Shown here in pieces: positions 3,407 through 28,485 of a DNA stretch of 32,166 nt. Positions within the stretch are counted from its first letter, which is position 1, and every line of letters starts with the position of its first letter. A model generated the notes under the pieces. It searched no databases, was not told where the DNA came from, and worked only from the letters and a program-made list of their open reading frames with translations. The translations under genes and the position numbers were made by a program. Source of the stretch: Paludibacteraceae bacterium (GTDB lineage: Bacteria > Bacteroidota > Bacteroidia > Bacteroidales > Paludibacteraceae); assembly GCA_017401985.1 (NCBI GenBank), contig JAFPNK010000058.1, forward strand, positions 1 through 32,166, read 5' to 3'.

Positions 3407-3448
3407 CTTACACTATACACCTTACACTGTACACCTTACACTGTACAC
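3407..3448 (-). repeat. Heptamer tandem array between guanine deaminase and lipoate ligase genes
   Basis: Six 7-bp units fill 42 of the 44 intergenic bases. On the minus (coding) strand they alternate GTGTACA, GTGTAAG, GTGTACA, GTGTAAG, GTGTATA, GTGTAAG, and the ATG of the ligase gene follows at once. Equivalent to three 14-bp units with one substitution. The GTGTAAG unit carries a TAA. Confidence 0.95.
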
Positions 3449-3450
3449 CT

Positions 3451-4728
3451 TTACATCACCGGTTCGGGCAGTTCGACACCGCGGCAGAAACGACGTTTGA
3501 TATCGCGGTCATCGCCGAGGTAGATATAGCGTTCGAGGCGTTGCTCGAGCGTGTAGTTATCATAATTGAGATACCGGTCATCAATAAGGAGCGCATCGAA
3601 TTCATAACCGGGTTCGAAGGAGCCGACCTTACCGAAGAACGAGCCGCCGCCTTTGGTAGCGAGATAGAACACTTCGCTAAGGCTAAGGAACTGCATCTCG
3701 CCGCGTGTCTGGGCGTAGTTGAGTTTGGATACCTGAATAGCGTACTGCATGACGCGCAGCATAGACATATGATGTCCAGCCGACACATCGGTTCCGAGCG
3801 CCACGTTGATACCGGCATTGAGGAACTTACGAATAGGCGCCATACCGGACGAGAGGTTACTGTTGGACATCGGGCAGTGTACTACGTACACGCCGTTGCG
3901 ACGCATGAGTTCCATCTCCTCGCCGTCGGTGTAGCAGCAGTGTGCCATGAGCGTAGGCGTCTGACCGAACAGACCGTATTTATCGTACGCGCCTCCGTAA
4001 CAGGTGGTGTCCGGTTCGAGTTCATGCACCCACATGATCTCCGAGCGGTTCTCTGAGAGGTGCGACTGCACGGGCAGACCGGTCTCTTTGGCGTATTCGC
4101 CGAGAGCGGTCAGCATTTTTTCTGAACAGGAAGGCACGAAACGCGGGGTGATGATCGGTTGCACCAGACCGTTGCCGTGCTCATCGAGGTGCGACTTGAG
4201 CATACGCATGCCTTCCAGCACTTCGGCGGTGGTGTTCTGTAGCGTGTCAGGACTGTTACGGTTCATGCCGACGAGTCCGACCATCGCACCCATGCCGGCC
4301 TGAATAAAGAGGTCAGCCAGGATACGAGTGGACTCCGGATGAATGGTACCGAAGACAGCACTACGCATCGTACCTTGCATCCACAACTCGTGCACAAAAC
4401 GGCGATACATACGCCGTGCGTAGTCCGGGTCGCGGTATTTGGTTTCCTCCGGGAACGTATAGGTATTAAGCCACGGCAGCAGTTCGAGGTCAAGCGCCAG
4501 ACCCATGTTCCGATACTGCGGTGCGTGCACGTGCAGGTCGTTAAAGGCAGGAATAAGGATCTTGTCTCCAAAATCCATCACTTGGCGACGCCAGTCCATG
4601 TTCTCCGGCAGTTCGCGATAGATACCTTCAATCAAGCCGTTGGACTTAACCACAATGTATCCGTGCTCGATGATTTCCAACTTCCCGGGTGTGGGAGTGA
4701 AAATGATGTTCGCTCTGTAGATTTTCAT
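3451..4728 (-). CDS. guaD: Guanine deaminase (amidohydrolase superfamily)
   Basis: Converts guanine to xanthine and ammonia with a single zinc. At 425 residues it is normal for the family. Zinc and catalytic residues are visible: H66 and H68 in DLHVHAPQY, H223 and E226 in SHLSE, H263 in LMAHCCY, and D314 in LGTDV. The segments GLALDLELLPWLNTYTFPEE (~76-95), MNRNSP and PRFVPSC are characteristic of guanine deaminase rather than of cytosine, adenine or chlorohydrolase-type relatives. Its ATG overlaps the stop of the upstream gtrA-like gene by 4 bp (ATGA), suggesting translational coupling. Purine salvage has no obvious link to the neighbouring envelope and tRNA charging genes, so the operon looks mixed in function. 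Confidence 0.92.
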   Translation of the reverse strand: MKIYRANIIFTPTPGKLEIIEHGYIVVKSNGLIEGIYRELPENMDWRRQVMDFGDKILIPAFNDLHVHAPQYRNMGLALDLELLPWLNTYTFPEETKYRDPDYARRMYRRFVHELWMQGTMRSAVFGTIHPESTRILADLFIQAGMGAMVGLVGMNRNSPDTLQNTTAEVLEGMRMLKSHLDEHGNGLVQPIITPRFVPSCSEKMLTALGEYAKETGLPVQSHLSENRSEIMWVHELEPDTTCYGGAYDKYGLFGQTPTLMAHCCYTDGEEMELMRRNGVYVVHCPMSNSNLSSGMAPIRKFLNAGINVALGTDVSAGHHMSMLRVMQYAIQVSKLNYAQTRGEMQFLSLSEVFYLATKGGGSFFGKVGSFEPGYEFDALLIDDRYLNYDNYTLEQRLERYIYLGDDRDIKRRFCRGVELPEPVM

Positions 4729-5150
4729 TTTTCTTCTTTTTTAAAGAATATAAGGCAAATAAGATAATTGATACATCCTCCGATGAAGATAACCACGTAA
4801 CTGATGTATTCTTCTTTCCATTCAGGCCACAGTTCGATGGCGAGAGGGAGTAGCGCGAACTGGATGATCAGATTGACAGCACGCGCGGAGAGGAATCCTC
4901 CGGCATTCTTCAGGCTGGGACGAGTACCGAAAGCGTACCAGTTGAGGAACAGGTAGTTCGGCACTATCTCTACCAGATAGCCGATGGCGAACGCCACGTA
5001 GTATAAGGCCACTCCTTTCTCCGGTTGTCCGAGTGCCCACAATGCCGCCTTGAACACCCAGGTCTGTACGAACATTCCTGTTGTTCCGATGACGGTAAAG
5101 CGAAGTGCACTTCGAACTTTGTCCGGCAGATAGGAAGAGGGTAACCTCAT
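4725..5150 (-). CDS. GtrA-like family membrane protein
   Basis: Small integral membrane protein of 141 residues with four predicted hydrophobic segments (approx. 15-37, 47-66, 85-105, 114-134), the topology of the GtrA family (PF04138). Family-like features are the RFTVIGTTG start of the first helix, the ..FLNWYAFG stretch after the second helix, and a basic C-terminus after the last helix (FFKKEEK). GtrA proteins are thought to assist transfer of lipid-linked sugars across the membrane, but the role of this copy is unknown. The gene starts 7 bp after alaS, inside a heptamer repeat, and overlaps guaD by 4 bp. Confidence 0.8.
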   Translation of the reverse strand: MRLPSSYLPDKVRSALRFTVIGTTGMFVQTWVFKAALWALGQPEKGVALYYVAFAIGYLVEIVPNYLFLNWYAFGTRPSLKNAGGFLSARAVNLIIQFALLPLAIELWPEWKEEYISYVVIFIGGCINYLICLIFFKKEEK

Positions 5151-5169
5151 TTATGATTTATGATTTTAA
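5149..5169. repeat. Heptamer array at the alaS / gtrA-like junction
   Basis: Plus-strand units ATTTATG, ATTTATG, ATTTTAA. Read on the coding minus strand, the array carries the alaS stop codon (TAA, 5160-5158) and its end touches the ATG of the gtrA-like gene (5150-5148). Three units only, the last imperfect. Confidence 0.75.
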
Positions 5170-7764
5170 ATTTGCGAGCAATTCCTCCATCGCGGCATTG
5201 AGGCCGTTGACGTCACGACCGCCGGCAGTAGCCATCCAGGGTTGACCACCTCCACCGCCTTGAATATTCTTAGCCGCGGACTTGATCATCGCACCGGCAT
5301 TCAGGCCTGCTTCTACGAGCGGTTGGCTCAGGAAGACAGCAATCGTCGGTTTGTTCTCGAACTGCGTAGCGGCTACGACGGCGAACTTCACATCGGTGAA
5401 CTTACCGCGCAGCAGCGGCATCACGCCACGAATCATCTCAGGATTAGCTTCGCCTTGCAGGCGTACCAGTTTGATATCACCGAAGTCCTCGGCACGTGCG
5501 ATCAGGTCATCGCGATAGCGCTCAATCTTCTCCGCCATGAACTCTTCGATCTGTTTCTTGAGTCCAGCGTTCTCGTCAATAGACTTGCGAATAGCCGCAG
5601 CGAGATCCGGGGCATTATTGAAGAGCGCTTTGAGGCCTGTGAGCGTGTCTTGCGCCATGTAATAGAGTTCATCGGCTTTAGCGGCCGTCACTGCTTCGAT
5701 ACGACGCACACCGGCTGCGATACTGGTCTCCATGAGAATACGTACCGAACCGATACGACCGGTGGAGGACACGTGACAACCGCCACAGAGTTCCACCGAC
5801 GGACCGTATTTGATGACGCGCACGTCGTCGCCGTATTTCTCACCGAACAGCGCCATGGCACCCATCGCTTTCGCTTCCGCGATCGGCGTGTGACGACTCT
5901 CCTCGAGATGAATATCCTGACGAATGAGTTGGTTAGCCAGCACCTCTACCTTACGCAGCTCCTCCGGTGTCACTTTCTGGAAGTGAGAGAAGTCAAAACG
6001 CAGGCTGTCCGGGGTTACCAAACTACCCTTCTGCTCTACGTGTTTGCCCAGCACCTCACGCAGCGCGTAATGGATGATGTGCGTAGCCGAGTGGTTGCAA
6101 GCAATCGCCTGACGGCGCTCGGCGTCTACGGTAGCGATGAGTGCCTCGCCAAGAATGGCGGGCAATTCCGTGAGGATGTGTACCGGGAGGTTGTTCTCGC
6201 GTTTGGTATCGATAACACGAACGTTGCCGAGCGTACCGGTATCTCCGACCTCACCACCCATTTCGGCATAGAACGGGGTCTTGGAGAGCACCACTTGATA
6301 GAACTCTTTGCCTTTCTGGCTGACCTTACGGTAACGGAGGATCTGTGTCTCGCAACTCAACTCGTCATAACCGACGAACTCAGTCTCGCCTTCAGCCAGG
6401 ACAGTCCAGTCGCCCAGGTCTTGCTTGTTCGCTTCGCGACCCATCGATTTCTGGTGCTCAAGGGCTTTGTTGTATTCCTCTTCGTTGGTGGTGAAACCGT
6501 TCTCACGGAGAATGAGTTCCGTGAGGTCGAGCGGGAAACCGTATGTATCTTTGAGCGTGAACACATCCACGCCGCTGATCTCTTTTTTGTTGGCCTTGCG
6601 TGCTTCGTCCATCAGTTTGTCGAGCAGACCGATGCCTTTATCGAGCGTACGCAGGAACGCTTCTTCCTCGGACTTGATGACCGGAGTGATCTGTGCCTGC
6701 TGCTTCACCAGTTCGGGATACGCCTCACCGAGGTCGGCAATCAGTTGCGGCACGAGTTGGTAGAGGAAGGCGGAGCGCATGTTGAGGAACGTGTAACCGT
6801 ACCGCACGGCGCGGCGAAGGATACGACGAATGACATAACCCGCTTTCTCGTTCGACGGCAACTGTCCGTCGGTGATGGCGAAGGCGATGGTACGTATATG
6901 ATCGGCGATAACACGCATCGCGATATCGGTCTTCTCGTCCTTACCGTATTCGCAACCACAGATAGCGCCGATCTTTTTCAGCATCGGTTGGAACACATCG
7001 GTGTCGTAGTTCGAGGTCTTGCCTTGAATCGTACGCACCAGACGCTCGAAGCCCATACCGGTATCAATCACTTTCTTAGCCAGCGGTTCGAGCGAACCGT
7101 CTGCCTTGCGGTTGTATTGCATGAACACGATGTTCCAGATCTCAATCACCTGCGGATGATCTTTGTTGACCAGTTCACGTCCCGGCACTTTGGCACGCTC
7201 TTCCGCCGAACGGCTGTCTACGTGAATCTCCGAGCACGGACCGCAAGGACCGGTATCACCCATCTCCCAGAAGTTATCGTGCTTGTTACCGTTGAGGATA
7301 TGATCAGCCGGCAGGTGTTTTGCCCAGATAGACGCAGCTTCATCATCGCGACTCAGTCCTTCTTCGGGCGAACCCTCAAAGACCGTTGCGTAGAGGTTTG
7401 CGGGATCAATCTTAAGCACATCCACGATGTATTCCCATGCGAAATCAATCGCTTCGGTCTTGAAATAATCTCCGAAGGACCAGTTACCGAGCATCTCGAA
7501 CATGGTGTGGTGGTAGGTGTCGTGTCCTACCTCCTCAAGGTCGTTATGCTTACCCGACACGCGAAGACACTTCTGACTGTCTGCCACGCGGGGATACTTA
7601 ATGGGGTCGTTGCCAAGGATGATACCCTTCCACGGGTTCATTCCTGCGTTGGTGAACATAAGGGTGGGATCATCTTTGATCACCATCGGCGCAGAGGGAA
7701 CGATCTGGTGTCCCTTCGACGCCATAAAGTCCAAGAAGGACTGACGAATTTGTTGTGATGTCAT
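5158..7764 (-). CDS. alaS: Alanyl-tRNA synthetase
   Basis: Charges tRNA-Ala. The 868-residue protein has the full domain set: class II catalytic core (1-~240, with the start [32 protein letters not shown] and [11 protein letters not shown] at 171-181), tRNA-recognition region, editing domain with the metal-binding HSATH (H558, H562) and CGGCH (C660, H664), and the C-Ala domain with the glycine-rich [14 protein letters not shown] near the end. All four editing-site ligands are present, so mischarged Ser/Gly should be cleared. It sits 6 bp after pdxA and 7 bp before the gtrA-like gene, in the middle of a probable six-gene operon. Its stop codon lies in a heptamer repeat. Confidence 0.98.
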
Positions 7765-7770: not shown

Positions 7771-8862
7771 CTATTGATTTTGATTCTCGTTATATCTCGT
7801 TGTTTTGAAGTCTATGAATTCGCGTCGCGGTTTGCCTTCCGTATCCGCCCGCTCAATGAATGGCAGGGGATTAGCGGTGTTCTCGTCGTATTCCGCCCGC
7901 TCGCGAATCACATCAATTGCCATATAGATAGCGTGCCGCATCGAGGCCTCGTCGGCTTGGTTCTTACCCGCTATATCGTAACCGGTGCCATGGTCAGGCG
8001 AGGTGCGTACGACAGACAAGCCGGCCGTGAAATTGACTCCGCTCATATCAAGGGTCTTGAACGGAATCAGTCCCTGGTCATGGTACATCGCGAGCACGGC
8101 ATCGAAATGCTTGAAGTGTCCGGAACCGAAGAATCCGTCGGCAGCGTACGGTCCGAATGCCCATATACCCTGCTCTTTGGCCTTGTTGATAGCCGGCAGA
8201 ATGATCTCTTGTTCCTCCTTACCGAGCAGTCCCTGGTCACCGGCATGGGGATTGAGCGCCAGCACGGCGATACGCGGTTTCTCCAATCCGAAGTCCCGTT
8301 TGAGAGTGCGGTTGAGAATAGTCATTTTGGCGATTATCCGTTCCTCGGTTATCTGCGCAGGTATATCCGCGAGCGCCACATGATTGCACACTAACGCCAC
8401 GCGCAGGTTCTCCGAGCAGAGCATCATCAGGCTCTCACCTCCGAAGATCCGCTCGATATACTCGGTGTGACCGCCGTTAAGCGCCTCTTTGTTGAGCGGA
8501 GCCGTCACAAGCGCCTGCACACGTCCTTCTTTGAGATCGCGGCACGCGCGGTCGAGCGATGCTTTGGCGGCCTTGTTCGCTTCGTCCGTCATGGCACCGA
8601 ACTGCACCGGCACGTTATCCGGATAGCTGACGATAAGGTTCATACGGCCGTCTTTGGCTTGCTCCGGCGTATCGATGATATTCCACGTTACATTACGGTG
8701 ATCTTCATCCAGGGTCTGCAGGTGATGCTTAGCCACCGCTGCATTACCGTACACCACGGGGCGTAGCACTTCGAATATATGGGTCTCCAGCAGCGCTTTG
8801 AACAGCACTTCGTACCCCACTCCGTTGGTATCACCGGTTGTGATTGCTATGATAGGTTTCAT
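7771..8862 (-). CDS. pdxA: 4-hydroxythreonine-4-phosphate dehydrogenase
   Basis: Enzyme of the DXP-dependent vitamin B6 (PLP) route: oxidises 4-phosphohydroxy-L-threonine for condensation by PdxJ. 363 residues. The three metal-binding histidines are visible with family spacing: H161 (VCNHVALADIP), H206 (NPHAGDQG) and H261 (MYHDQGL), offset by 5 from my recollection of E. coli numbering. Substrate-binding GGHTEYI (~130-136) is also present. The start MKPIIAITTGD is canonical, so the 32-bp overlap with the 3' end of the upstream nitroreductase gene is real. The C-terminus is about 20-30 residues longer than usual and basic. Products feed the two PLP enzymes (aminotransferase, GcvP) at the far end of the window, but those have a separate promoter. 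Confidence 0.96.
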   Translation of the reverse strand: MKPIIAITTGDTNGVGYEVLFKALLETHIFEVLRPVVYGNAAVAKHHLQTLDEDHRNVTWNIIDTPEQAKDGRMNLIVSYPDNVPVQFGAMTDEANKAAKASLDRACRDLKEGRVQALVTAPLNKEALNGGHTEYIERIFGGESLMMLCSENLRVALVCNHVALADIPAQITEERIIAKMTILNRTLKRDFGLEKPRIAVLALNPHAGDQGLLGKEEQEIILPAINKAKEQGIWAFGPYAADGFFGSGHFKHFDAVLAMYHDQGLIPFKTLDMSGVNFTAGLSVVRTSPDHGTGYDIAGKNQADEASMRHAIYMAIDVIRERAEYDENTANPLPFIERADTEGKPRREFIDFKTTRYNENQNQ

Positions 8863-9367
8863 AATGTATTTTTTCGTACTTGAGTTTCGTTAAATCGTAG
8901 TCTTTTCGTTCCTCGTTCTTGTATCCCAGCGAGATGACGCAGAGGACGGTGCGGTCTTCGGGAATGGCGCAGAGGTTCTTAATGAGTTCCTCGGACGCTT
9001 CCCTGCAATAGACGTGACACCAGCACGCGCCGAGGCCTTGCTCCTCCGCCGCTAACAACAGGTGTTCGGCAGCTATCGCTCCGTCTGCCATCCAGGCATC
9101 GCTCAGGCTCGTATCCAGCGCCACCACGATAGCGGCAGTGGCGGTGTTGAACATCTGACTGCCGTACGTACGGCACCCGGCCATCGCACGCAGCTTAGCC
9201 TCATCGCGCACCACGATGAACTCCCATGGATTGGTGCGTTTAGACGATGGCGCCATCAGCGCGCAGCGCAACATATAATCTATTTTCTCCTGCTCCACCG
9301 GCCGGTTCGTATAGTTGCGTATCGACCGCCTTTTTTGGCATAATTCTAAAAAAGAGCCCATAATCAT
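8831..9367 (-). CDS. Nitroreductase family protein
   Basis: FMN-dependent nitroreductase-fold protein of 178 residues (176 if the second ATG at 9361 is used). The N-terminal CQKRRSIRNYTNRPV is the typical FMN phosphate-binding motif, followed by APSSKRTNPWEFIVV (~40-54) and the C-terminal GYKNEERKDYD. Members reduce nitro compounds, quinones or flavins with NAD(P)H; the natural substrate is not predictable. The frame is open further upstream to an ATG at 9505, but that extension would span the promoter at 9381-9411, so I chose 9367/9361. First gene of the probable operon leading into pdxA, with which it overlaps by 32 bp; divergent from lptD. Confidence 0.88.
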   Translation of the reverse strand: MIMGSFLELCQKRRSIRNYTNRPVEQEKIDYMLRCALMAPSSKRTNPWEFIVVRDEAKLRAMAGCRTYGSQMFNTATAAIVVALDTSLSDAWMADGAIAAEHLLLAAEEQGLGACWCHVYCREASEELIKNLCAIPEDRTVLCVISLGYKNEERKDYDLTKLKYEKIHYETYHSNHNR

Positions 9368-9380
9368 CCAAATTAGCGTG

Positions 9381-9411
9381 CAAAGATACAACTTTTTTTT
9401 GACATACGCAA
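9381..9411 (-). promoter_or_regulatory. Promoter of the nitroreductase-pdxA-alaS operon
   Basis: Minus strand: TTG (9411-9409), 20 bp, TATCTTTG (9388-9381), a canonical TAnnTTTG element. The predicted transcript start is about 8-15 nt from the nitroreductase ATG, an almost leaderless arrangement, and this decides against the longer upstream start. Confidence 0.82.
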
Positions 9412-9604
9412 GCCCGCGCGCGATTTTTCCTTTTTTTTCTTGTTTGTAAGCTTGCGCGGCGTAGGCGGCTAAAAGCGGGATTAGATTCGGTGAAACCGCC
9501 ATCACTCTCGTAAACGGCTCGTAAATGCCTCGATAATGGCAGGTAAATGACAGGTAAACGGCTCGATAAAGTTTTTGCGAATTTTTATAATTTTTATAAA
9601 AAAA
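9412..9604. other. Divergent intergenic control region
   Basis: About 190 bp between the two divergent promoters. It holds a GC-rich patch and a T-rich tract (about 9401-9445), a weak GCAAGC/GCTTGC inverted repeat (9408-9413 / 9450-9455), the five-unit 11-bp repeat (9510-9564, listed separately) and an A/T-rich stretch leading into the lptD promoter. I see no small gene in it. Confidence 0.6.
9510..9564. repeat. Five direct 11-bp repeats upstream of the lptD promoter
   Basis: Units in order: GTAAACGGCTC, GTAAATGCCTC, GATAATGGCAG, GTAAATGACAG, GTAAACGGCTC. The first and fifth are identical; a degenerate sixth (GATAAAGTTTT) follows. The period is close to one helical turn, placing each unit on the same DNA face, and the block ends 40 bp before the -33 element of lptD. 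It could be a set of protein binding sites or a phased bend. Confidence 0.8.
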
Positions 9605-9655: not shown

Positions 9656-12547
9656 GTGTACATACGCGAGCGCATACATATGATAATGGGAGTGCTCCTA
9701 CTCTGCTCGATGGCAGCGTGGGGACAGGAGACGGTGGATAGCATTGCACCGCCTGCTACCGGTGTGGACAGTATAGCGCAACCGGTACCGAGAGACAGCG
9801 TAACAAGGCCGATACCGACAGACAGTATAGCGCGACCGGTACCGAGAGACAGCGTAACAAGGCCGGCGCCGGTACAGCCGAAGAAACCCAGCGCGTTGTC
9901 GGGACCGGTGCATTACCAGGCAAGCGATTCGATGATCATGATGGGAGACGGAACGGCGTTCTTGCACGGTAACGGCGATTTGAAATACGAAACGATGGAG
10001 TTGAAGTCCGAGTACATCCGCATGAACATGGACAGCAACCTCATCTATGCACGTGGCGTGTGGGACAGTCTGAATTACGAATGGCGTGGCCGACCGGTGT
10101 TCACGGAAGGGAATGACAGTTACGAGACGAGTGAGATCACGTATAACATCAAGACGCAGAAGGGTTATATCCGTCGCGTGGTGACGCAGCAGGGAGAGGG
10201 TTATATCATTGCAGACCGCACGAAGAAGATGAACGGCGATGTGATGACGATGGCCGGAGGACAATACACGACGTGTAGCGATCACGACCATCCGCATTTC
10301 TACCTGAAGTTAACGAAGGCAAAAGTGAAGCCGGGTGATTATATTGCCTCGGGTCCGGCGTACCTGGTGGTGGGTGATGTACCGCTGCCGCTGGCTATTC
10401 CGTTCGGTTTCTTCCCCTTCACCAACACCTACTCCAGCGGATTGCTCATGCCGCAGTTCGGTGACGATTACAGCCGAGGATTATACTTGAGCAACTTAGG
10501 TTACTACTTCGCCATCAACGATTATATGGATTTGCAGATCACGGGTGATATATACACGCGTGGTACCTGGGCTATACGAGCGCAGACGAAGTACATCTGG
10601 CGGTACCATTTCTCGGGTAGTTTGAGTGTCAATTACCGCAACGACGTAACGGGCGAACGCGGGTTGCCGGATTATTCGGCACACAAGAACTTCAGCGTAC
10701 AGTGGACACACACGCAGGATCCTAAGTTCAATCCGTACTGCACGTTCTCCGCGAGCGTGAACTTCTCCACGAGCGGTTACAACCGGAGTAACATCAACAG
10801 TTACTACAACTCCAGTCTGTATTCAGAGAACACGAAGAGCAGTACGATCAACTACACGCAGCGTTTCCCGGACAGTCCGTGGAGTTTGAGCATGAGTGCC
10901 AGTCTGACGCAGCGCACGAGTGACTCCACTATCTCGTTGACGGCACCGGAGTTGGCGGTGAACATGGCGACGGTCTATCCGTTCAAATCGCTGCGCCAGG
11001 CGGTGCTGAAGAAGAAAGGCAAACCGGCAGGTAAGGAACAGTGGTACGAGAAAATAAGCATGCGGTACACGATGAACGGCAAGATCGGCGTGAACAGCAT
11101 CAAGGAGAAGGATTTTCTGCATTCGAATTTCCTGCGCGACTGGCAAACGGGTATCAAGCACACGATGCCTATTAACGCCAGTTTCACGTTATTCAAGTAC
11201 CTGAACGTCACCCCAAGCGTGAGCATGACCGACCGTATGTACTTCACGCGAGTGGACAGACGGTGGGACGACGAAGCGCAGGCGTTAGCGATGGACACGA
11301 CCACGGGCTTTTACAACGTGTTCGATTTTAACGTAGGCGTGAGCATGAGCACTAAGTTATACGGATTCTACACGCCTATCCGCAAACTGTTCCCGAACGG
11401 AAGAGTGGAGAAATTCCGTCACGTAGTGACCCCGTCCATCAGTTTCAGTTACCATCCGGATTTTGCGAAAGAAGGTTGGGGCTATTACGGCAGTTACGAG
11501 CAACCGGTTTATACGAGCGAGATAGACAGCATCACGGGGCGTAAGATACAGAAGACGGACGATGCCGGTAATCCGATTTATCAGCATCAAGTCTATTCGC
11601 GGTTCCCGAACGGCGTGTACGGTAATGCGTCGAAAGGCATGGCCGCGACCCTCAGTTTCGGCGTGGATAACAACCTGGAGATGAAGGTCATCAACAAAGA
11701 GGACACGACGGGTAAGAATCCGTACAAAGTGATCAGCCTCATTGACCAGTTCCGAATATCCGGAGGATATAACTTCGCAGCCGATAGTATGAACTGGAAC
11801 AATTTTAACGTCAACATACGTTTGAAGTTCCCGAAGTTGAACAACTACACGCTGAACCTCAGTACGACGCTCGATCCGTACATGTACGAACTGAATGCGC
11901 TGGGTAGCCCTGTGCGCACCAACAAGCAGTACTGGCACAACGGCCGGTTCCCGCACTGGAGCGGATTTAGATGGAATTTCAGTTACACGCTCAATAACAC
12001 CACTATCAAGAAATGGAAAGATGCAGCTGCCAAACGCAGAGGCGAAAAGATAGAAGCGAAAGGTGATGAGGAGGGCGAACCGCTCACGCCTGTCGAAACA
12101 GATGGCGAAGGACTGGTGAGCGGCGCGAAGATAGGCGGCAGTCCTACGGCTGAGGTTGACGACGGATACGTGCGCACCGAGATTCCGTGGAGTATAACGA
12201 TCAATTATTCGCTATCGTACGCCAACGGCAACGTGTTCAATTACGACAAGATGCAGTACGACATGAAGTGGTTCAATTCCCTCTCCATGAGCGGTAACAT
12301 CGGTCTGGGTAAAGGATGGAAAGTGAGCGCGAGCGCAACGTATAACTTCGATTACATGAAACTGACGGCCTGCACGTTCAATATCAGTCGTGACCTGCAC
12401 TGCTGGAACATGACGGCCAGCATCAACCCAATCGGACCGTTCAAGAGTTACACGTTCCACATAGGCGTGAACGCATCGATACTGAGTGACCTCAAATATG
12501 ACAAAAATAGTAATCAATCGACCAACGCAAGAGTAACATGGTGGTAG
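9656..12547 (+). CDS. lptD: LPS-assembly outer membrane protein, LptD/OstA-like
   Basis: Outer-membrane beta-barrel that inserts lipopolysaccharide into the outer leaflet. From a GTG at 9656 it is 963 residues, with signal peptide MYIRERIHMIMGVLLLCSMAAWG. ATGs at 9680 and 9686 are alternatives but drop the basic n-region. After the signal comes a Pro-rich repeat linker (~30-75), then an OstA-like beta-jellyroll (~80-250: SDSMIMMGDGTAFLHGNG, ELKSEYIRMNMDSNLIYARG, RVVTQQGEGYIIADRTKKMNG, YTTCSDHDHPHFYL), then a long barrel rich in alternating aromatic strands that ends in RVTWW with the terminal aromatic residue typical of OM barrels. An acidic insert (~800-840, EEGEPLTPVETDGEG) is probably a surface loop. 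It heads a probable lptD-slyD-der unit. Confidence 0.88.
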   Translation: MYIRERIHMIMGVLLLCSMAAWGQETVDSIAPPATGVDSIAQPVPRDSVTRPIPTDSIARPVPRDSVTRPAPVQPKKPSALSGPVHYQASDSMIMMGDGTAFLHGNGDLKYETMELKSEYIRMNMDSNLIYARGVWDSLNYEWRGRPVFTEGNDSYETSEITYNIKTQKGYIRRVVTQQGEGYIIADRTKKMNGDVMTMAGGQYTTCSDHDHPHFYLKLTKAKVKPGDYIASGPAYLVVGDVPLPLAIPFGFFPFTNTYSSGLLMPQFGDDYSRGLYLSNLGYYFAINDYMDLQITGDIYTRGTWAIRAQTKYIWRYHFSGSLSVNYRNDVTGERGLPDYSAHKNFSVQWTHTQDPKFNPYCTFSASVNFSTSGYNRSNINSYYNSSLYSENTKSSTINYTQRFPDSPWSLSMSASLTQRTSDSTISLTAPELAVNMATVYPFKSLRQAVLKKKGKPAGKEQWYEKISMRYTMNGKIGVNSIKEKDFLHSNFLRDWQTGIKHTMPINASFTLFKYLNVTPSVSMTDRMYFTRVDRRWDDEAQALAMDTTTGFYNVFDFNVGVSMSTKLYGFYTPIRKLFPNGRVEKFRHVVTPSISFSYHPDFAKEGWGYYGSYEQPVYTSEIDSITGRKIQKTDDAGNPIYQHQVYSRFPNGVYGNASKGMAATLSFGVDNNLEMKVINKEDTTGKNPYKVISLIDQFRISGGYNFAADSMNWNNFNVNIRLKFPKLNNYTLNLSTTLDPYMYELNALGSPVRTNKQYWHNGRFPHWSGFRWNFSYTLNNTTIKKWKDAAAKRRGEKIEAKGDEEGEPLTPVETDGEGLVSGAKIGGSPTAEVDDGYVRTEIPWSITINYSLSYANGNVFNYDKMQYDMKWFNSLSMSGNIGLGKGWKVSASATYNFDYMKLTACTFNISRDLHCWNMTASINPIGPFKSYTFHIGVNASILSDLKYDKNSNQSTNARVTWW
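9767..9874 (+). repeat. 54-bp tandem repeat coding the LptD Pro-rich linker
   Basis: Two 54-bp copies (9767-9820, 9821-9874) differing at a few positions. Each holds two related 27-bp halves, giving 9-residue units DSIAQPVPR, DSVTRPIPT, DSIARPVPR, DSVTRPAPV, with a diverged unit just before. A flexible periplasmic spacer between signal peptide and jellyroll; copy number may vary among strains. Confidence 0.9.
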
Positions 12548-12566: not shown

Positions 12567-12605
12567 AACCGCCATTCGGATTAGTAACATAAATAAACAA
12601 CATAT

Positions 12606-14543: not shown

Positions 14544-14546
14544 AAC

Positions 14547-19742: not shown

Positions 19743-19745
19743 GAT

Positions 19746-21600: not shown

Positions 21601-22268
21601 TCGTCTACACTGTTTATCACGCCTTCCGTGAACACCCATTTTTTACCCGGATAGAGTTCGGGCCACAACCGATTATGCGTAGAGATGAGCACCGTGATGC
21701 CGGCCTTACTTATCGAATAGAGCAGTTCGATGATCTCCTGTCCGGTCTCGGCATCCAGGTTACCCGTCGGTTCGTCCGCCAGGATAATCTCCGGACTGTT
21801 GAGTAGCGCACGTGCGATCACCACACGCTGCTGTTCGCCTCCCGACAGTTCATACGGCTTCTTATACGCCTTGGTCTCCATACCGACCTGTTCTAACACC
21901 TCTTGCACATGCTCGCGCATCAACTTCTTGTCCTTCCATCCCGTGGCGCGTAACACGAACAGCAGGTTCTCCTCCACCGAACGATCGGTCAGCAGTTTGT
22001 AATCCTGGAATATGATGCCCAGACGGCGACGAAGGTACGGCAGTTTGCGGCGGCTGATGGTTCGCATGTCATAATCCAACACGCGCGCCTCACCGTCCAC
22101 AATAGGTAACGCACCGTAGAACGTTTTCATCAACGACGATTTACCGCTACCCACTTTGCCGAGCATATAAATCATCTCGCCCTGATCCACCGTCAGATTC
22201 ACGTTGCTGAGCACGATCTGATCGGCCTGATGAATCTCTACTCCCTTATAATCAATGAGTTGTGCCAT
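21597..22268 (-). CDS. ftsE: FtsE-like ABC transporter ATP-binding protein
   Basis: ATPase subunit of 223 residues. Walker [10 protein letters not shown] (~37-45), Q-loop [14 protein letters not shown] (~85-98, the wording typical of FtsE), signature LSGGEQQR (~140-147), Walker [13 protein letters not shown] (~160-171), and H-switch STHN near 195. FtsE works with FtsX in divisome-linked activation of peptidoglycan hydrolases. No ftsX is adjacent here; the upstream gene is a DUF349 protein (1-bp overlap) and the downstream one is sufE (4-bp overlap), so assignment rests on motifs, and a LolD-like role cannot be fully excluded. Confidence 0.85.
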
Positions 22269-23914: not shown

Positions 23915-25021
23915 ATGATCACGATAGAACAATTAAAAGATGTACAACAGCGTGCGGATAAGCTGAAGACGTACTTGCAGATCGACGAGAAACGTATTCA
24001 GTTAGAGGAAGAAGAGTTGCACACCCAAGCCCCCGGTTTTTGGGACGATGCCAAAGCAGCCGAGGCGCAGATGCGTAAGGTAAAGGGCATCAAGCGCTGG
24101 ATTGACGGCTATGAAGGCGTGCGCGCTGCGGTCGAAGAACTGGCGCTCGCGTTCGATTACTACAAAGAGGAACTGGTGACCGAAGAAGAGGTGGATGCCG
24201 CCTACTCTCACGCGCTGCAAGAGGTGGAAGACCTGGAGATGAAAAACATGCTTTCGCATGAGGAAGACCAGATGCCGGCAGTGCTCAAGATTGTGTCCGG
24301 TGCCGGTGGTACCGAAGCACAAGACTGGGCCGAACAACTCATGCGTATGTACCAGCGTTACTGCGAGAAGCACGATTACAAGGTGACCATCGAGAACCTG
24401 CAGGAAGGTGATGAAGCGGGCATCAAGACCGTGACGTTCAATATCGAAGGGGATATGGCCTACGGTTACCTGAAGTCGGAGAACGGTGTGCACCGTCTGG
24501 TGCGCGTCAGTCCGTACAACGCGCAGGGCAAGCGTATGACCAGTTTCGCATCCGTGTTCGTCGTGCCGCTCATCGACGACACCATCGAGGTCGAAGTGAA
24601 CCCTGCCGGAATCAGTTGGGACACCTTCCGTTCATCCGGTGCAGGAGGACAGAATGTCAACAAGGTGGAGTCCGGTGTGCGTCTGCACTATAAGTTCATC
24701 AACCCGCTCACCAACCAACCGGACGAGATAGTGATTGAGAACACCGAGACGCGTGACCAGCCGAAGAACCGCGAGAATGCCTTGCGGCACTTACGGAGTC
24801 AACTCTATGAGTTGGAGATGGAGAAACGCCGTCAGGCGCAGGCACAGGTTGAGGCCGGGAAGAAGAAGATCGAATGGGGCTCGCAGATCCGTTCGTACGT
24901 GTTCGACGATCGCCGCGTGAAGGACCATCGCACCAACTACCAGACATCGAACGTCAACGCCGTCATGGATGGCGATATAGATGCATTCATTAAGGCCTAC
25001 TTGATGGAGTTCCCGGATTAA
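23915..25021 (+). CDS. prfB: Peptide chain release factor 2
   Basis: Terminates translation at UGA/UAA. 368 residues in one uninterrupted frame. The catalytic GGQ is at 244-246 (SSGAGGQNVNKVESGVRLHY). The stop-codon recognition tripeptide is SPY (199-201) where E. coli RF2 has SPF; the surrounding VSPYNAQGKRMTSFASVFV is RF2-like and I believe common in Bacteroidales. The site that in many bacteria holds the autoregulatory CTT TGA C frameshift (here KTYLQID, residues 18-24) reads straight through with no in-frame TGA, so that control is absent. First gene of a probable five-gene operon; its TAA overlaps the next ATG by one base. Confidence 0.97.
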   Translation: MITIEQLKDVQQRADKLKTYLQIDEKRIQLEEEELHTQAPGFWDDAKAAEAQMRKVKGIKRWIDGYEGVRAAVEELALAFDYYKEELVTEEEVDAAYSHALQEVEDLEMKNMLSHEEDQMPAVLKIVSGAGGTEAQDWAEQLMRMYQRYCEKHDYKVTIENLQEGDEAGIKTVTFNIEGDMAYGYLKSENGVHRLVRVSPYNAQGKRMTSFASVFVVPLIDDTIEVEVNPAGISWDTFRSSGAGGQNVNKVESGVRLHYKFINPLTNQPDEIVIENTETRDQPKNRENALRHLRSQLYELEMEKRRQAQAQVEAGKKKIEWGSQIRSYVFDDRRVKDHRTNYQTSNVNAVMDGDIDAFIKAYLMEFPD

Positions 25022-25383
25022 TGGCAGCTCAAGGCATATATAAGGATCGCGGCAGTAAGTTCTTAGGATTCGCTGAACCCATCAAGGACGAGGACGAAGC
25101 CAAGGCACGCATTGCATGGTACAAGAAGAAATACCACGACGCACGGCACGTGTGCTACGCCTACCGCTTGGGACCGAACCTGTGGCGAACCAAAGATGAC
25201 GGCGAACCGCACGGAACAGCCGGCGCACCTATTCTCCGCTCCATTGATGCCCGCGGACTGGATAATATACTGGTAGTCGTTGTGCGCTACTTCGGCGGCA
25301 CGCTCCTCGGAACAGGCGGTCTGATGGTGGCATATCGAGAAGCGAGCAAAGCAGCGCTTGATAATTGGAAGATTGAAGATTGA
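25021..25383 (+). CDS. YigZ/IMPACT-family protein reduced to its N-terminal domain
   Basis: 120 residues. Matches the Impact_N / UPF0029 domain: GSKFLGFAEP, YHDARHVCYAYRLG, DDGEPHGTAGAPIL, VVVVRYFGGTLLGTGGL. YigZ-type proteins are usually about 200 residues with a second domain (DUF1949); here the frame ends right after YREASKAALDN, with the last residues (WKIED) coded by the heptamer array. So the protein either lost its second domain when the array formed, or the domain was lost first. The N-terminus is also about 10 residues shorter than typical, starting on the prfB stop. The retained domain is complete, so I call it a shortened gene rather than a pseudogene. Function of the family is uncertain; IMPACT in eukaryotes opposes GCN2 activation. 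Confidence 0.8.
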   Translation: MAAQGIYKDRGSKFLGFAEPIKDEDEAKARIAWYKKKYHDARHVCYAYRLGPNLWRTKDDGEPHGTAGAPILRSIDARGLDNILVVVVRYFGGTLLGTGGLMVAYREASKAALDNWKIED

Positions 25384-25412
25384 AGATTGGAGATTGGAGA
25401 TTGAAGATTGGA
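25364..25412 (+). repeat. Seven-unit heptamer array at the yigZ / acyltransferase junction
   Basis: ATTGGAA, GATTGAA, GATTGAA, GATTGGA, GATTGGA, GATTGAA, GATTGGA, then GATTT and the ATG at 25418. Consensus GATTGRA. It codes the last residues and stop of the yigZ-like gene and fills the entire gap. The acyltransferase frame is open through it (back to an ATG at 25358), giving an alternative but unlikely repeat-coded N-terminus. Confidence 0.95.
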
Positions 25413-25417
25413 GATTT

Positions 25418-26422
25418 ATGGATAAGAGAGAATATCAATTTAAGGACATACGTGCGTACCGAGTGGGAGCACTGTTGTGGATCACGGATCTGCTGATCTT
25501 GTTCCCTATGTTGCAGTCCTGGTCCTGGCGACGGACGAAGAGTCTGAAACTGGCGTATTTGGGTGACCGCAAGCGCATAGAGCAAGATATCAAACGAGGT
25601 GCGTTCTTCATGACCAACCACCGCGATATCATCATGGACGCCACCTGGTTATCGTACCTGCTGCGTATCCGTTACGGCATCCGGCCGTTCATGGGTGTGG
25701 GTAATAACCTGTTCGCAAAGAAATGGATTGAAGTCGTGATGCGGTACTTGCGCTGCTTCGTGGTCAAACGCGGTGCAGGAGCGCATGCACAACTGGAGAA
25801 CGCAAAACAACTGTCCGCTTATATCCGCATGCTTCGCGAGCAAGGCAAGTCCATCTGGTTGGCGCAACGCGAGGGACGCGCCAAAGACAGCAACGACCTC
25901 ACGCAAACGAGCGTGCTGCATATGCTCACGCTGGGTGAGAATGACTTTTTCGAGAATGTCAAAGCGCTCAATATCTGTCCCGTCAGCATCACCTATGAGT
26001 TCGACCCCTGCGATTATCTGAAAGCCAAAGAGATGCAACTCAAGCGCGATAATCCCAAATGGCGCAAGCGGGCGAAAGACGATGTAGAGTCCATGCAAAC
26101 GGGTATTCGCGGGTACAAAGGTCGCGTTGTGTATCGCTTAACGCCCAGCATCAATCCCGAGGTGGATGCCCTGCTGACTGCCCATCCGGAACTGCGCAAG
26201 TCACAGACGCATGACCAACTGCAAGCGGTGTGTGACATCATCGACCGGCACATCCATCAGGGATACGAGATCTTCGAGCGTGGCACGGATTTTGATGCGT
26301 ATGTAGAGAGCAGAGTAGCGAAGATTGACATCCCGAATAAAGACGAAGCCTTCCTCCGCGAACGCATATACGAAATGTACAACAATCCGGTAATAAATTA
26401 CCAGAAAGCTATTAAAAATTAA
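25418..26422 (+). CDS. PlsC-like glycerolipid acyltransferase family protein
   Basis: 334 residues. The acyltransferase motif I is NHRDIIMD (the N-H-x4-D form, ~67-74), and motif III appears as AQREGRAKD (~148-156) with the substrate-phosphate-binding EGR. Members transfer acyl chains to glycerophosphate, lysophospholipids or other lipids; the long C-terminal part (~200-334, Lys/Arg-rich) does not tell which. No signal peptide; one hydrophobic stretch near the N-terminus (~14-32) may anchor it at the membrane. Start at 25418 follows the heptamer array and avoids a repeat-coded leader. The stop lies in another heptamer pair before coaD. Confidence 0.8.
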   Translation: MDKREYQFKDIRAYRVGALLWITDLLILFPMLQSWSWRRTKSLKLAYLGDRKRIEQDIKRGAFFMTNHRDIIMDATWLSYLLRIRYGIRPFMGVGNNLFAKKWIEVVMRYLRCFVVKRGAGAHAQLENAKQLSAYIRMLREQGKSIWLAQREGRAKDSNDLTQTSVLHMLTLGENDFFENVKALNICPVSITYEFDPCDYLKAKEMQLKRDNPKWRKRAKDDVESMQTGIRGYKGRVVYRLTPSINPEVDALLTAHPELRKSQTHDQLQAVCDIIDRHIHQGYEIFERGTDFDAYVESRVAKIDIPNKDEAFLRERIYEMYNNPVINYQKAIKN

Positions 26423-26430
26423 GAATTAAG
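26417..26430 (+). repeat. Heptamer pair at the acyltransferase / coaD junction
   Basis: AATTAAG, AATTAAG, then AATG of the coaD start. The acyltransferase stop (TAA 26420-26422) is in the first unit and the next ATG overlaps the start of a third. Confidence 0.7.
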
Positions 26431-26431
26431 A

Positions 26432-26881
26432 ATGAAAAGAGCAATATTTCCGGGATCATTTGACCCGTTTACCGTAGGCCACTTCGACATTGTGAAACGT
26501 GGCCTGGAGTTATTTGATGAGATTATTATCGGCATCGGCCGAAACAGCACCAAGAAAGAGACTTTCCCTATTCGCGAACGCGAGGAAGCGATACGTAAGA
26601 TCTTCGCAGACGATCCGCGTGTCAAAGTGGCTATTTACGACTGCCTGACGGTTGACTTCGCCAAAGAGCAAGACGCACAGTTCATTCTGCGCGGCATCCG
26701 TTGCGTGGAGGACTTCGAGTACGAGCGTAACATGGCGGAAGCCAACAAGCAGTTAGGCGGCGTGGAGACTATCATTCTCTACACCCGTCCTGAATACGCG
26801 CACATCTCCTCTACCCTCGTGCGCGACCTGTACGCATACGGCAAAGACGTGAGCGATTTTGTACCTAACACACTGCGTTAA
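26432..26881 (+). CDS. coaD: Phosphopantetheine adenylyltransferase
   Basis: Penultimate step of CoA synthesis: 4'-phosphopantetheine + ATP to dephospho-CoA. 149 residues, slightly short of E. coli CoaD. Nucleotidyltransferase motif GSFDPFTVGHFDIV with the T/H-x-G-H as TVGH (15-18), RGIRCVEDFEYERNMAEANKQL (~90-111), and the C-terminal SSTLVRDLYAYGKDVSDFVP with the I/V-S-S-T/S-x-V-R motif. Lies 9 bp after the acyltransferase and 1 bp before the protease gene; CoA is the acyl carrier precursor, though I draw no stronger link from that. Confidence 0.97.
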   Translation: MKRAIFPGSFDPFTVGHFDIVKRGLELFDEIIIGIGRNSTKKETFPIREREEAIRKIFADDPRVKVAIYDCLTVDFAKEQDAQFILRGIRCVEDFEYERNMAEANKQLGGVETIILYTRPEYAHISSTLVRDLYAYGKDVSDFVPNTLR

Positions 26882-26882
26882 T

Positions 26883-28463
26883 ATGAACCGACAAATAGTT
26901 ATAAGTCTTTTAGCCTTACTCCTTATTCCTTATTCGCTTTTCGCGCAGGATCGGCAGAAGACGGTGCGCGCAGACGAGTGCATCTCCATCTTCAACGATG
27001 TGCTCCGTCAGGTGGATGTCAACTATGTGGATACGCTCAATTATGAGGACCTCATAGAAACGGCTATCAATGCGATGCTGTATAAGATTGACCCGTACAC
27101 GGTCTATTATCCGCAGAAGCAGGAACGCGAACTGCGCATGATGACGACCGGCAAGTACGGCGGAATAGGTAGTATCATTCAGCAGAAAGACTCGTTCGGT
27201 ATCTTCATTGCCAATCCGTACGAAGGCAAACCTGCCCAGCGTGCAGGCATTCAAGCGGGTGACCGCATTGTGTCGGTGAATGGTATCAGCACCAAAGACC
27301 AGACAGTGAGCGACGTGAGCAATAACCTGCGCGGCGTGCCGGGAACGACGGTCACGATCGTGTTGGAGCGAGAAGGAGTACCTGAACCGTTTACGGTCGA
27401 AGTGGTGCGAGAAGACATACATTTGGACGCCGTCAGTTACTACACCGTCTTTGAAGCAGACAGCCTGTCCGAACCCGTGGGATACATCTCTTTCTCCGAG
27501 TTCACGGAAGGCTCCTCGCAGGCGTTCGCGAATGCGCTGGATGATATGTACTACAACCGCGGGGCGCGCAAACTTATCTTCGACCTGCGTGGCAACGGTG
27601 GCGGTCTGGTGAGCGAAGCGGTGCAGATTGTCAACCTCTTCGTCGATCGGGACCTGACGATAGTCGAGACGCACGGCAAGACCGCCAACAGTCATTACAC
27701 CTACAAAACGCGTAACACACCGCGGTACAAAGACCTGCCGTTGGTCGTCCTGGTGGATAAGAACTCCGCTTCCGCGAGCGAGATTGTGTCCGGTGCACTG
27801 CAGGACTTAGGCCGCGCACAACTGATTGGTCAACGCACGTTCGGCAAAGGACTGGTTCAGAATGTACGCTCCGTCGTGTACGGTGGACACATCAAGATCA
27901 CCACCAGTAAGTACTACCTACCCTCCGGACGCTGCATTCAGGCCATTGACTACAGCGAGCGGCAGAAAGGACACGCACTCAAACGCGACACGGCCGGAGG
28001 CATCCTACCGGACATCGTGATGAGCGATTCGGCCAAAGTGGATATATGCTATTCGCTCTATATCCATAACTACTTCTTCGATTACGCCACACGTTATCAC
28101 CGCCTGCACGACAGCATTGCCGCACCGGAGGTATTCGAATTGACGGACGAGGAGTTGGAAGATTTCTGTGCTTTCCTGGACGAGCGGCACTTCAAGTATG
28201 ACACCGAGACCAGTAAATATTTTGCCGACATGCTGAAGATGGCACGTAACGAAGATCTGGATTCGGCTACGATAGCTCGGCTGGAAGAGTTGCAACCTTT
28301 CCTCACACCCAATTTCCGGGAAGCGATTCAACGCAACAAGGACGAGGTAAAAGCTATGCTCGGCTCCGAAATCATACTTCGTTATTATTACCAACGCGGT
28401 CAAGCCGCATTCAATCTGCGCTTTGACAAGGAGTTGGAAAGAGCACTTCAGGAACTGAAGTAA
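26883..28463 (+). CDS. S41-family C-terminal processing peptidase (CtpA/Prc-like)
   Basis: Periplasmic serine protease, 526 residues from the ATG at 26883 (TAATATG junction with coaD). Signal peptide MNRQIVISLLALLLIPYSLFAQ, whose hydrophobic core is coded by a heptamer array. Order: N-terminal helical segment, PDZ domain (~90-175, with YGGIGSII and AGIQAGDRIVSVNG), then the S41 catalytic domain with the Ser in NSASASE (~294-300) and Lys322 in TFGKGLVQ, completing a Ser-Lys dyad. The ~130-residue C-terminal helical tail is longer than in E. coli-type cores and may regulate access. An upstream in-frame ATG at 26859 lies in coaD and would spoil the signal peptide. Ends at a convergent terminator. 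Confidence 0.92.
   Translation: MNRQIVISLLALLLIPYSLFAQDRQKTVRADECISIFNDVLRQVDVNYVDTLNYEDLIETAINAMLYKIDPYTVYYPQKQERELRMMTTGKYGGIGSIIQQKDSFGIFIANPYEGKPAQRAGIQAGDRIVSVNGISTKDQTVSDVSNNLRGVPGTTVTIVLEREGVPEPFTVEVVREDIHLDAVSYYTVFEADSLSEPVGYISFSEFTEGSSQAFANALDDMYYNRGARKLIFDLRGNGGGLVSEAVQIVNLFVDRDLTIVETHGKTANSHYTYKTRNTPRYKDLPLVVLVDKNSASASEIVSGALQDLGRAQLIGQRTFGKGLVQNVRSVVYGGHIKITTSKYYLPSGRCIQAIDYSERQKGHALKRDTAGGILPDIVMSDSAKVDICYSLYIHNYFFDYATRYHRLHDSIAAPEVFELTDEELEDFCAFLDERHFKYDTETSKYFADMLKMARNEDLDSATIARLEELQPFLTPNFREAIQRNKDEVKAMLGSEIILRYYYQRGQAAFNLRFDKELERALQELK
26915..26942 (+). repeat. Heptamer array coding the CtpA signal-peptide core
   Basis: CTTACTC, CTTATTC, CTTATTC, GCTTTTC: four units, the middle two identical. 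In frame they give LLLIPYSLF, the hydrophobic core and cleavage approach of the signal peptide. Confidence 0.7.
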
Positions 28464-28464
28464 A

Positions 28465-28485
28465 AGCTAAGAGTCAAGAGCTAAA
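28465..28485 (+). repeat. Heptamer units after the ctpA-like gene
   Basis: AGCTAAG, AGTCAAG, AGCTAAA, starting 1 bp after the stop codon and running into the A-tract of the terminator. Confidence 0.65.

Follow-up and report, generated by a model that had tools for sequence, protein, structure and literature searches.

Heptanucleotide arrays with genome-specific repeat units in the gene spacers of a Paludibacteraceae bacterium and its relatives

Why do the gene junctions of one bacterial contig carry so many short tandem arrays that share a step of seven base pairs while their units differ from site to site? The question is raised by a 32,166-nucleotide stretch of a Paludibacteraceae bacterium (assembly GCA_017401985.1, contig JAFPNK010000058.1, positions 1 to 32,166 of the forward strand; hereafter the window), for which a preliminary description listed ten heptamer junctions and proposed an undescribed process at gene ends. 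The window is contig C1 of a draft genome of 1.95 Mb that is 82% complete. Its nearest named relatives are rumen and gut metagenome-assembled genomes (MAGs), mostly labelled uncultured Bacteroidales or Paludibacteraceae, with der proteins that are 98–99% identical. We take Paludibacter propionicigenes to be placed in the Paludibacteraceae, the label of many of these relatives.

Arrays have been scored with our own scheme (match +1, mismatch -2), and genes were called with our own small hexamer caller, which is non-standard. Three samples have been used: 426 kb of the window's own genome, made up of the window and 20 further stretches; 80 orthologous loci of relatives (the der loci; 1,476 kb, 88% coding); and four genomes, including the own genome and the genome G035, with 277–426 kb each. 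Two of the stretches (L211 and L234) are only N; the actual lengths are 276.7 kb for genome G040 and 348.0 kb for genome G017. The genomes examined closely are drafts, the named ones being labelled MAG or uncultured isolates, with one genome per species.

Across the four genomes, the same unit occurs at unrelated sites about fivefold more often within than between genomes. Identical units are found in 292 of 8,521 array pairs within genomes (3.4%) and in 111 of 16,455 pairs between genomes (0.67%). In 1,000 label permutations, the number of within-genome pairs averaged 137, had a maximum of 187 and never reached 292. Each genome alone shows 2.2–4.4% identical-unit pairs, which is above every between-genome pair (0.25–1.1%). 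Half of the arrays come from G035, as do 77% of the identical-unit pairs found within genomes; with this genome left out, the counts are 52/1,966 within and 17/3,920 between, and none of 1,000 permutations was as high. The excess is also present in noncoding arrays alone (114/2,368 within, 40/4,653 between) and after arrays with shared flanks are dropped (211/6,902 within, 89/14,419 between). It goes beyond composition controls, as letter permutation gives 0.57% within versus 0.24% between, and composition-matched single spacer 7-mers give 0.60% versus 0.26%. Imperfect 21-mers are common to unrelated sites in 44 of 9,002 pairs within genomes or loci and in 70 of 100,930 pairs between them, the latter count being conservative because some der loci belong to genomes G015, G035 or G040. 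On a small scale, within a single 21-kb locus (L052), TCAGCCG forms four arrays in two genes and recurs at the der–faah junction.

The units are diverse, with 75 distinct canonical units among 149 arrays. They are mostly A+T-rich, and the commonest are AAAGTTG, AAAAATT and AAAGTCG. The preliminary description held that the unit differs at every site and that descent from a single repeat would not give rise to such arrays. The former is roughly so in the window, but genome-wide AAAGTTT, AAAGGTG, ATTTATG and GGTGATA/GGTTATA recur in the own genome. The latter had to be given up, since units are shared within a genome above chance and one composite of heptamers has been copied.

This composite is a heptamer-built hairpin of genome G015. 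In locus L076, GTCGTTW and CCAAYGA arrays face each other around a short variable loop, and the hairpin is present at three junctions of one 21-kb locus with a fourth copy at the locus end. Nine near-full copies of 54–77 bp have been identified in G015 (82–100% identity, query included; at least 41 matches, the best 40 of 44 candidates being scored). Ten aligned copies have unrelated flanks and vary in length, loop and ends, and no fixed ends were seen by eye among them. The four copies that were folded each give a long hairpin, the best of which has a single mismatch in every seven bases. In the copies L259, L260, L266 and L267, six-base paired blocks are separated by an unpaired position at every seventh base, most clearly in L266. 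When the best 15 candidates per genome were considered in 61 genomes (37 of the genus), near-full copies were found only in G015 and, once, in G035; G015, G035, G000, G003 and G032 had more candidates than this limit.

The preference for a step of seven is strong. At a score of at least 9, the window has seven arrays of period 7, one of period 6 and none of period 8, and shuffles give 0.14 for period 7. The own-genome sample has 32 period-7 arrays at a score of at least 11 (19 noncoding and 13 in called genes; shuffles, 1), together with 0, 6, 3, 6, 0, 8, 2 and 0 arrays of periods 5, 6, 8, 9, 10, 11, 12 and 13, respectively, 18 of period 14 and 16 of period 21. Noncoding DNA of the 80 der loci has 144 arrays of period 7 (in 60 of the 80 loci), 35 of period 8 and 15 of period 9, with 2, 1, 6, 3 and 5 arrays of periods 5, 6, 10, 12 and 13. 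In the same DNA, periods 11, 14 and 22 give 62 (42 of the 80 loci), 73 and 50 arrays, respectively; whole-DNA shuffles of the loci give 0–2 arrays at those periods. Period 7 leads period 8 in each of the four genomes (19/3, 16/9, 15/7 and 51/15, or 1.8 to 6.3 fold). A simple lag autocorrelation of intergenic DNA has no clear peak at 7 (0.290, with 0.286 at 6 and 0.299 at 8), so the signal consists of discrete arrays and not of bulk spacer. Alternating steps of 7 and 8 bp (CATTTACCATTTGGT) have been observed at the gap between the gene at 9656 and fkbp in L053, L067, L068 and L077 and in spacers of G035; such repeats may contribute to the period-15 noncoding counts.

When coding and noncoding arrays are counted jointly, the own genome has 75 period-7 arrays per Mb and the loci of the genus have 143 per Mb. 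The density falls to 23 per Mb in other families of the order (15 arrays in 660 kb; 9 of 40 loci). Other orders of the class have two arrays in 160 kb, and other classes have one in 240 kb. Based on this contrast, period 7 is a lineage-enhanced trait that is patchy elsewhere. The proposal of a process with a strong step-7 preference, enhanced in this lineage, is therefore borne out, with period 7 exceeding periods 6 and 8 in both the 80 loci and the four genomes.

Orthologous sites in related species mostly carry different units. In the fkbp–der gap, relatives of the window have ATTACGA, ATCGTAA, ATTGTAC, AATTAAG, AAAGTTT, other units, other periods or none, and most have units other than the AAAGTTT of the window or no array. 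At porV–ispF, many species have a gap of 1–9 bp or an overlap, and scattered species have arrays of GTCGAAA, CTGAATA, GAGTTAA or GGTACAA. The intergenic lengths of L101 and L104 are 3 and 38 bp (the array being in L104) with nearly the same flanking coding sequence, and those of L057, L059 and L066 are 3, 24 and 66 bp. Some units persist, namely GTCGAAA at the porV–ispF gap of the distant species L059, L066, L092 and L093, and AAAGTTK at the 9656–fkbp gap of several relatives. Identical units are found in 38 of 1,645 orthologous-junction pairs versus 145 of 9,350 non-orthologous pairs; the junction therefore predicts the unit only weakly, and the genome predicts it better. A few sister pairs differ in array length, by 7 bp (L099/L108), 14 bp (L037/L045, with the same base changed in all copies) and 42 bp (L059/L066).

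The local origin of the arrays has been assessed at 40 array junctions for which a nearest short-gap relative (gap of at most 12 bp) could be named. In 2 of the 40 (5%), the relative has the exact unit at its site, compared with 7% for the units of other arrays. The mean best match is 5.48 of 7 bases for the own unit versus 5.58 for the units of other arrays. Array birth is thus not explained by local duplication of what stands at the relative's site.

The placement of the arrays is broader than gene ends. Among gaps of at least 14 bp in the 80 loci, an array (score of at least 9) is present in 125 of the 584 between co-directional genes, in 15 of the 50 convergent ones and in 8 of the 92 divergent ones; convergent gaps are not avoided, while divergent (promoter) gaps are. 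Many arrays lie between a stop and a start codon, often close to either. The statement that arrays lie almost only between co-directional genes is right in that most of them are there, but it passes over the convergent gaps and the arrays inside genes, and a process confined to gene ends is too narrow for the same reason. Arrays equally common within genes or between convergent genes had been named as evidence against the idea, and this distribution was found in part. The location is mostly noncoding, with 144 noncoding and 67 coding-called period-7 arrays in the 80 loci, although 88% of this DNA is coding; G035 has 51 of each kind. Some of the coding-called arrays may reflect start-site errors of the gene caller, and others are inside conserved genes.

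In-gene arrays have been mapped at a score of at least 10 with the gene ends trimmed. The FAA-hydrolase gene has 20 in-gene arrays in the loci of relatives, at residues 13–17 and 102–117. The gene at 9656-12547 has nine at residues 38–66 and one at residue 800, the gene at 15181-18477 has four at residues 30 and 123–127, and the DUF349 gene has one. No in-gene arrays were found in der, fkbp, porV, ispF, aroK, sufE and abc (343 kb). Among 13 aligned orthologs of the FAA-hydrolase gene, a hypervariable stretch around residue 113 has other in-frame heptamers in several cases (GGACAAT, AAAGGTG, GGCGAAT) and hairpins or unrelated sequence in others. An array site would thus appear to need only a tolerance of insertions and deletions (indels), and not a gene junction; the in-gene places are termed variable or tolerant here from alignment and position only. 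A period-27 tandem repeat is located at 9767-9866 of the window within the gene at 9656-12547, where it overlaps approximately residues 38–66, the region in which relatives bear heptamer arrays.

A second class of arrays has a period of 11. In the window, Tandem Repeats Finder (TRF) identifies a period-11 array of 5.7 copies at 9507-9570 (CTCGTAAATGG), located in the divergent spacer between a gene at 8831-9505 (-) and the gene at 9656/9686-12547 (+). In relatives, the spacer upstream of the latter gene has period 11 in 18 of 65 loci (score of at least 12) and period 7 in 2 of 65, and the units are mostly unrelated. In the four genomes, gaps shorter than 150 bp and longer gaps hold 63 and 23 period-7 arrays and 0 and 28 period-11 arrays, respectively (Fisher P 6e-13). 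The corresponding counts in the der loci, which are non-independent, are 67 and 55 for period 7 and 10 and 48 for period 11 (P 1e-6). Period 7 is therefore found in both kinds of gap and period 11 mainly in long ones. The short spacers are probably transcribed, and the long ones probably bear promoters. Since 11 bp is about one helical turn, phasing in promoter spacers might be guessed at. The period-11 units also follow the genome: without the flank filter, similarity of at least 9 of 11 bases is found in 10 of 159 pairs within genomes and 2 of 469 between (0 of 1,000 permutations), and identical units in 4 of 159 and 1 of 469 (24 of 1,000 permutations).

An explanation has to cover a 7-bp preference, enrichment in one lineage, frequent replacement at orthologous sites, a vocabulary that goes with the genome, dispersed copies without flank homology and clustering in tolerant places. 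We favour, with about even confidence, the view that the arrays are dispersed, fast-turning repeats whose tracts are copied ectopically to tolerated sites, expanded by slippage and filtered by selection. In a first step, existing array tracts would be copied within the same genome to new sites, possibly as template-switched or filler DNA at replication or repair. At the new site, slipped-strand mispairing would then expand or contract the tract in steps of 7 bp, with the copies changing together, as a few sister pairs suggest. Selection would finally remove arrays except where indels are harmless, which is to say in short intercistronic and convergent spacers and in a few variable in-gene stretches; the distribution across tolerant places is observed, and selection is its presumed cause. 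The arrays would then probably be by-products rather than regulatory sites. A more far-reaching version, which we regard as possible and put forward only tentatively, is that an undescribed process templates heptad tracts across the genome, in-frame sites included. The length of the repeat would then depend on its surroundings, being 7 in short spacers and 11 in long ones, and each species would thereby refashion its spacers and the variable parts of its proteins from a vocabulary of its own.

Several observations weigh against ectopic copying. No tract has been traced from a donor to a recipient site with microhomology at the joins. Arrays of one 20-kb stretch share units more often (26/499) than arrays of different stretches do (185/6,403), and copying could be mimicked by slippage that favours certain motifs in a given genome. 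In the test for local seeds, the relatives are often distant (0.055–0.66 substitutions per site on the der tree), and a seed may have been lost. In a systematic test, there were only three close pairs with the same unit, of which one differed in length, by 14 bp. Array-bearing gaps that equal the short gap plus a multiple of seven are striking at porV–ispF, but between arrays and the nearest short-gap species there is no excess of such differences (7 of 40), and the rule is not general. The differing places of periods 7 and 11, and period 7 itself, are not explained by copying.

Pure local slippage is the strongest alternative, although we consider it unlikely. Here, a polymerase with a preferred slip of seven nucleotides would give birth to each array independently from random local words in neutral spacers, and the vocabulary would be a genome-specific mutational taste. 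Mrazek and colleagues have reportedly proposed such a 7-nt slip for bacterial heptanucleotide repeats. The step preference at 7 with its multiples 14 and 21 and the copy-number differences of sister pairs agree with it. A MutS-type domain is present, but loops of seven nucleotides are poor substrates of mismatch repair. The efficiency of mismatch repair falls with length, according to a survey of repeats across phyla (PMC4060949; cited papers are drawn on in excerpt throughout), and heptamers are over-represented in many bacteria (PMC4679880, PMC4692102). On the other hand, relatives show no local seed, the vocabulary excess goes beyond the composition and k-mer controls and is accompanied by shared imperfect 21-mers, and the G015 composite has plainly been copied; all of these count against local slippage.

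It is improbable that the arrays are mobile miniature elements, that is, palindromes or remnants akin to repetitive extragenic palindromic (REP) elements or miniature inverted-repeat transposable elements (MITEs), moved by a transposase in trans. The Rickettsia palindromic elements and REP are small dispersed repeats, some of them in frame in protein genes. The G015 hairpin resembles them; the arrays here differ in showing no fixed ends, in being mostly non-palindromic and in the absence of a Y1 transposase from most genomes of the genus. The dispersed copies of this hairpin and other small hairpins scattered in the same spacers speak for mobility. An inverted partner has been found for 32 of 468 arrays at 11 or more of 14 matches (control, 23) and for 14 at 12 or more (control, 4). 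This excess is in favour of mobile elements, but most arrays have no such partner, and hairpin arms are a feature of a minority only. The Y1_Tnp domain, the only transposase family tested, is rare in the genus (2 of 49 genomes) and commoner in other families (22 of 32 genomes). It has no match in the own genome, G000 (82% complete), in G015 or in G035, and a Y1 or REP-associated tyrosine transposase (RAYT) is rejected. A tandem repeat inside a MITE is known from BrickBuilt of Porphyromonas gingivalis (PMC4596501), which is likewise a dispersed tandem-repeat element of a Bacteroidales genome. BrickBuilt, as described there, has a 23-nt unit within a MITE with inverted-repeat ends, and no such ends have been found here.

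The other enzyme families tested do not, in general, track with the arrays either. The MutS_V domain, which covers MutS and MutS2, is present in 100 of 101 genomes, so mismatch-repair loss is ruled out as a general cause. Y-family polymerase lacks a match in 13 of the 61 draft genomes of the genus that were searched; it is weakly rejected, since two of the five match-less genomes with the locus (G052 and G022) still bear arrays (4 in 21 kb all told). Reverse transcriptase is found in 11 of the 49 genomes of the genus and in 16 of 32 from elsewhere. It has no match in G000, G017 or G035, the richest of the four genomes, and is rejected as a general cause, but it may play a part in G015, the genome with the copied hairpin, which has one match. 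A dedicated polymerase, reverse transcriptase or transposase, as had been suspected, is thus not indicated among these families in mostly incomplete genomes, the G015 match being the exception to their lack of correlation with the arrays.

A selected function on mRNA or DNA is equally doubtful; the arrays might, for example, space out translation, form stop-codon ladders or be bound by a protein that recognises repeats. A function of this kind has been suggested for the TAACTGA repeats of Beggiatoaceae (PMC4679880). In the der loci, which are non-independent, 93 of 117 co-directional arrays have the G-rich strand as their sense strand. The same holds for 51 of 80 in the four genomes, where replication-strand and transcription-strand bias are inseparable (51/80 for both). 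The preference of period 7 for short and of period 11 for long spacers and the closeness of many arrays to a stop or start codon would also fit a function. Against it, orthologous sites seldom share a unit, arrays are missing from the listed junctions in many species, and arrays also occur inside genes. Stop codons are present in 87 of 123 sense-strand units, well above the 37% of spacer 7-mers, but letter permutation gives 85.4, and the stop-codon ladder is thereby rejected.

That the arrays are artefacts of metagenome assembly is practically negligible as an explanation: the genomes are drafts and the named ones MAGs or uncultured isolates, but arrays are present in assemblies of several independent projects (RUG, UBA, RGIG and SRR bins), identical spacers occur in separate assemblies (L035/L086 and L030/L031), and most arrays (20–60 bp) are shorter than common short reads.

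Heptamer arrays are known from other bacteria, and we judge those described here to be an unusually active and rich variant of heptanucleotide repeats. The short tandemly repeated repetitive (STRR) sequences and long simple sequence repeats (LSSRs) of the cyanobacteria Calothrix, Nostoc and Microcystis, and the heptamer LSSRs of Mrazek 2007, as later papers describe them, share with them a 7-bp unit, a largely intergenic location and more than one unit family per genome. As in STRR sequences, the arrays here show a 7-bp excess over neighbouring periods, a mostly noncoding location and unit families dispersed through one genome. As far as the published accounts go, they differ in having many units per genome, a different vocabulary for every sampled species of one genus, in-frame in-gene arrays, a period-11 class and a Bacteroidales host. 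The supposition that no Bacteroidales equivalent has been described is not quite right, as TAACTGA direct repeats have been reported from Beggiatoaceae, some Cyanobacteria and five Bacteroidetes including Paludibacter propionicigenes (MacGregor 2015, PMC4679880). As far as that account goes, the TAACTGA system has one fixed unit and related heptamers are rarely repeated in the Beggiatoaceae genome, in contrast to the many units here. The TAACTGA repeats stand just 5' of start codons; of the arrays here, many lie between a stop and a start codon, and others in convergent gaps and in genes. Among the open-licence papers listed by literature searches, no other Bacteroidales account of heptamer arrays was found. 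The GGGAATC arrays of Xanthomonas and the GGGGA(C/T)T arrays of Nostoc (PMC4692102) are similar in being dispersed heptamer arrays. They have 2–26 copies, and at a given gene sister species differ in the length and sequence of the array; they have one G-rich consensus with quadruplex potential, unlike the diverse and mostly A+T-rich units here. In the excerpts examined, vocabularies that differ within one genus, in-frame in-gene arrays and the split between periods 7 and 11 are undescribed.

According to the same sources, why bacteria favour 7-bp repeats has been an open question since the over-representation of heptamers was found in 2007 (PMC4692102, PMC4679880). This genus makes the question testable, as it offers dozens of species with differing vocabularies, aligned junctions with and without arrays, a hairpin family in one species and the contrast between periods 7 and 11. 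Repeat DNA that sits in frame inside proteins also generates variation, which in ordinary comparisons of genes would pass for fast evolution. The arrays of these uncultured gut and rumen bacteria point to a little-understood copying process and to rapid genome reshaping.

In the window, each of the ten listed sites has been tested against shuffled sequence, with P values given per site for sites chosen post hoc. A clear heptad array stands at six of them, one with a true period of 14, and the other four are weak two-copy matches only. The longest heptamer array, GAAGATT/GGAGATT x7 at 25368-25416 (score 33), is located between a UPF0029 gene (25021-25383, +) and an acyltransferase-like gene. 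The array at 13155-13184, AAAGTTT x4 (score 20), belongs to the 28-bp gap between an FKBP-type gene (12606-13160, +) and der/engA (13189-14505, +), and at least eight similar stretches are found elsewhere in the own genome. At 3409-3448 (listed as 3407-3448), alternating heptamers form an array with a true period of 14 (CTTACACTGTACAC; TRF score 83 at period 14; our score 9 at period 7 and 28 at period 14). It occupies most of the 44-bp gap between a gene of the lipoyl-ligase family (2780-3406, -) and an amidohydrolase gene (3451-4728, -), both assigned by Pfam. The preliminary description was correct on the gap lengths of exactly 28 bp at 13161-13188 and 44 bp at 3407-3450. ATTTATG x2.6 at 5149-5166 (score 11) spans the join of a GtrA-family gene (4725-5150, -) and the alanyl-tRNA synthetase gene (5158-7764, -), and the ATTTATG/ATTTGTG family is present at several further sites of the own genome. 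ATTAAGA x3.3 at 26411-26433 (score 13) precedes a cytidylyltransferase-like gene (26432-26881, +). A degenerate GGTGATA/GGTTATT array at 21171-21191 (score 8, P 0.0008) lies between a shikimate-kinase gene (20627-21166, -) and a SufE-family gene (21181-21639, -), and this family is found twice more on contig C112 (L014).

The four weak sites are AAAGGTG/AAAGTTT at 14504-14517, directly 3' of der (score 4, P 0.037); AAAGGTG/AAAGGTA at 15123-15136 (score 6, P 0.0018); GGTGATA/GGTGATT at 20217-20237, at the end of an ispF-type gene (19746-20228; score 6, P 0.0025); and the heptamer-like AGCTAAG/AGTCAAG/AGCTAAA at 28465-28485 (score 5, P 0.016). Three further arrays were absent from the earlier list: a weak one at 336-353 (score 8), CCTTATT x3 at 26914-26935 (score 12), near the start of a predicted S41-peptidase gene whose start codon is uncertain, and CGGTGAG/CGGTTAC at 14919-14946 (+ strand, score 15), in frame inside the FAA-hydrolase-domain gene (14597-15124).

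Other small repeats share these spacers. An Rfam search of five sources gave one tRNA only. A dispersed hairpin element of at least 66 bp (..CGGGGTACCGGCCCC..) has been observed in gene spacers of L081, which has two copies, L085, L029 and L032; the copies in L081, L085 and L029 have no Rfam match at the gathering threshold. After der, positions 14517-14590 of the window hold a module with the palindrome TTAAGAAAAAGT..ACTTTTT..CTTAA followed by TTG..TAACTTTG, which we take to be promoter-like from its motifs. At least 21 similar stretches of 31–56 bp with 80–91% identity are found elsewhere in the own genome, and relatives have a similar module upstream of the same gene. The window spacers 12548-12605 and 19723-19745 contain the small palindromes CGGATAGCATCCG and CCGAATAGCATTCGG, and similar ones are present in the porV–ispF gap of L054 and L095.

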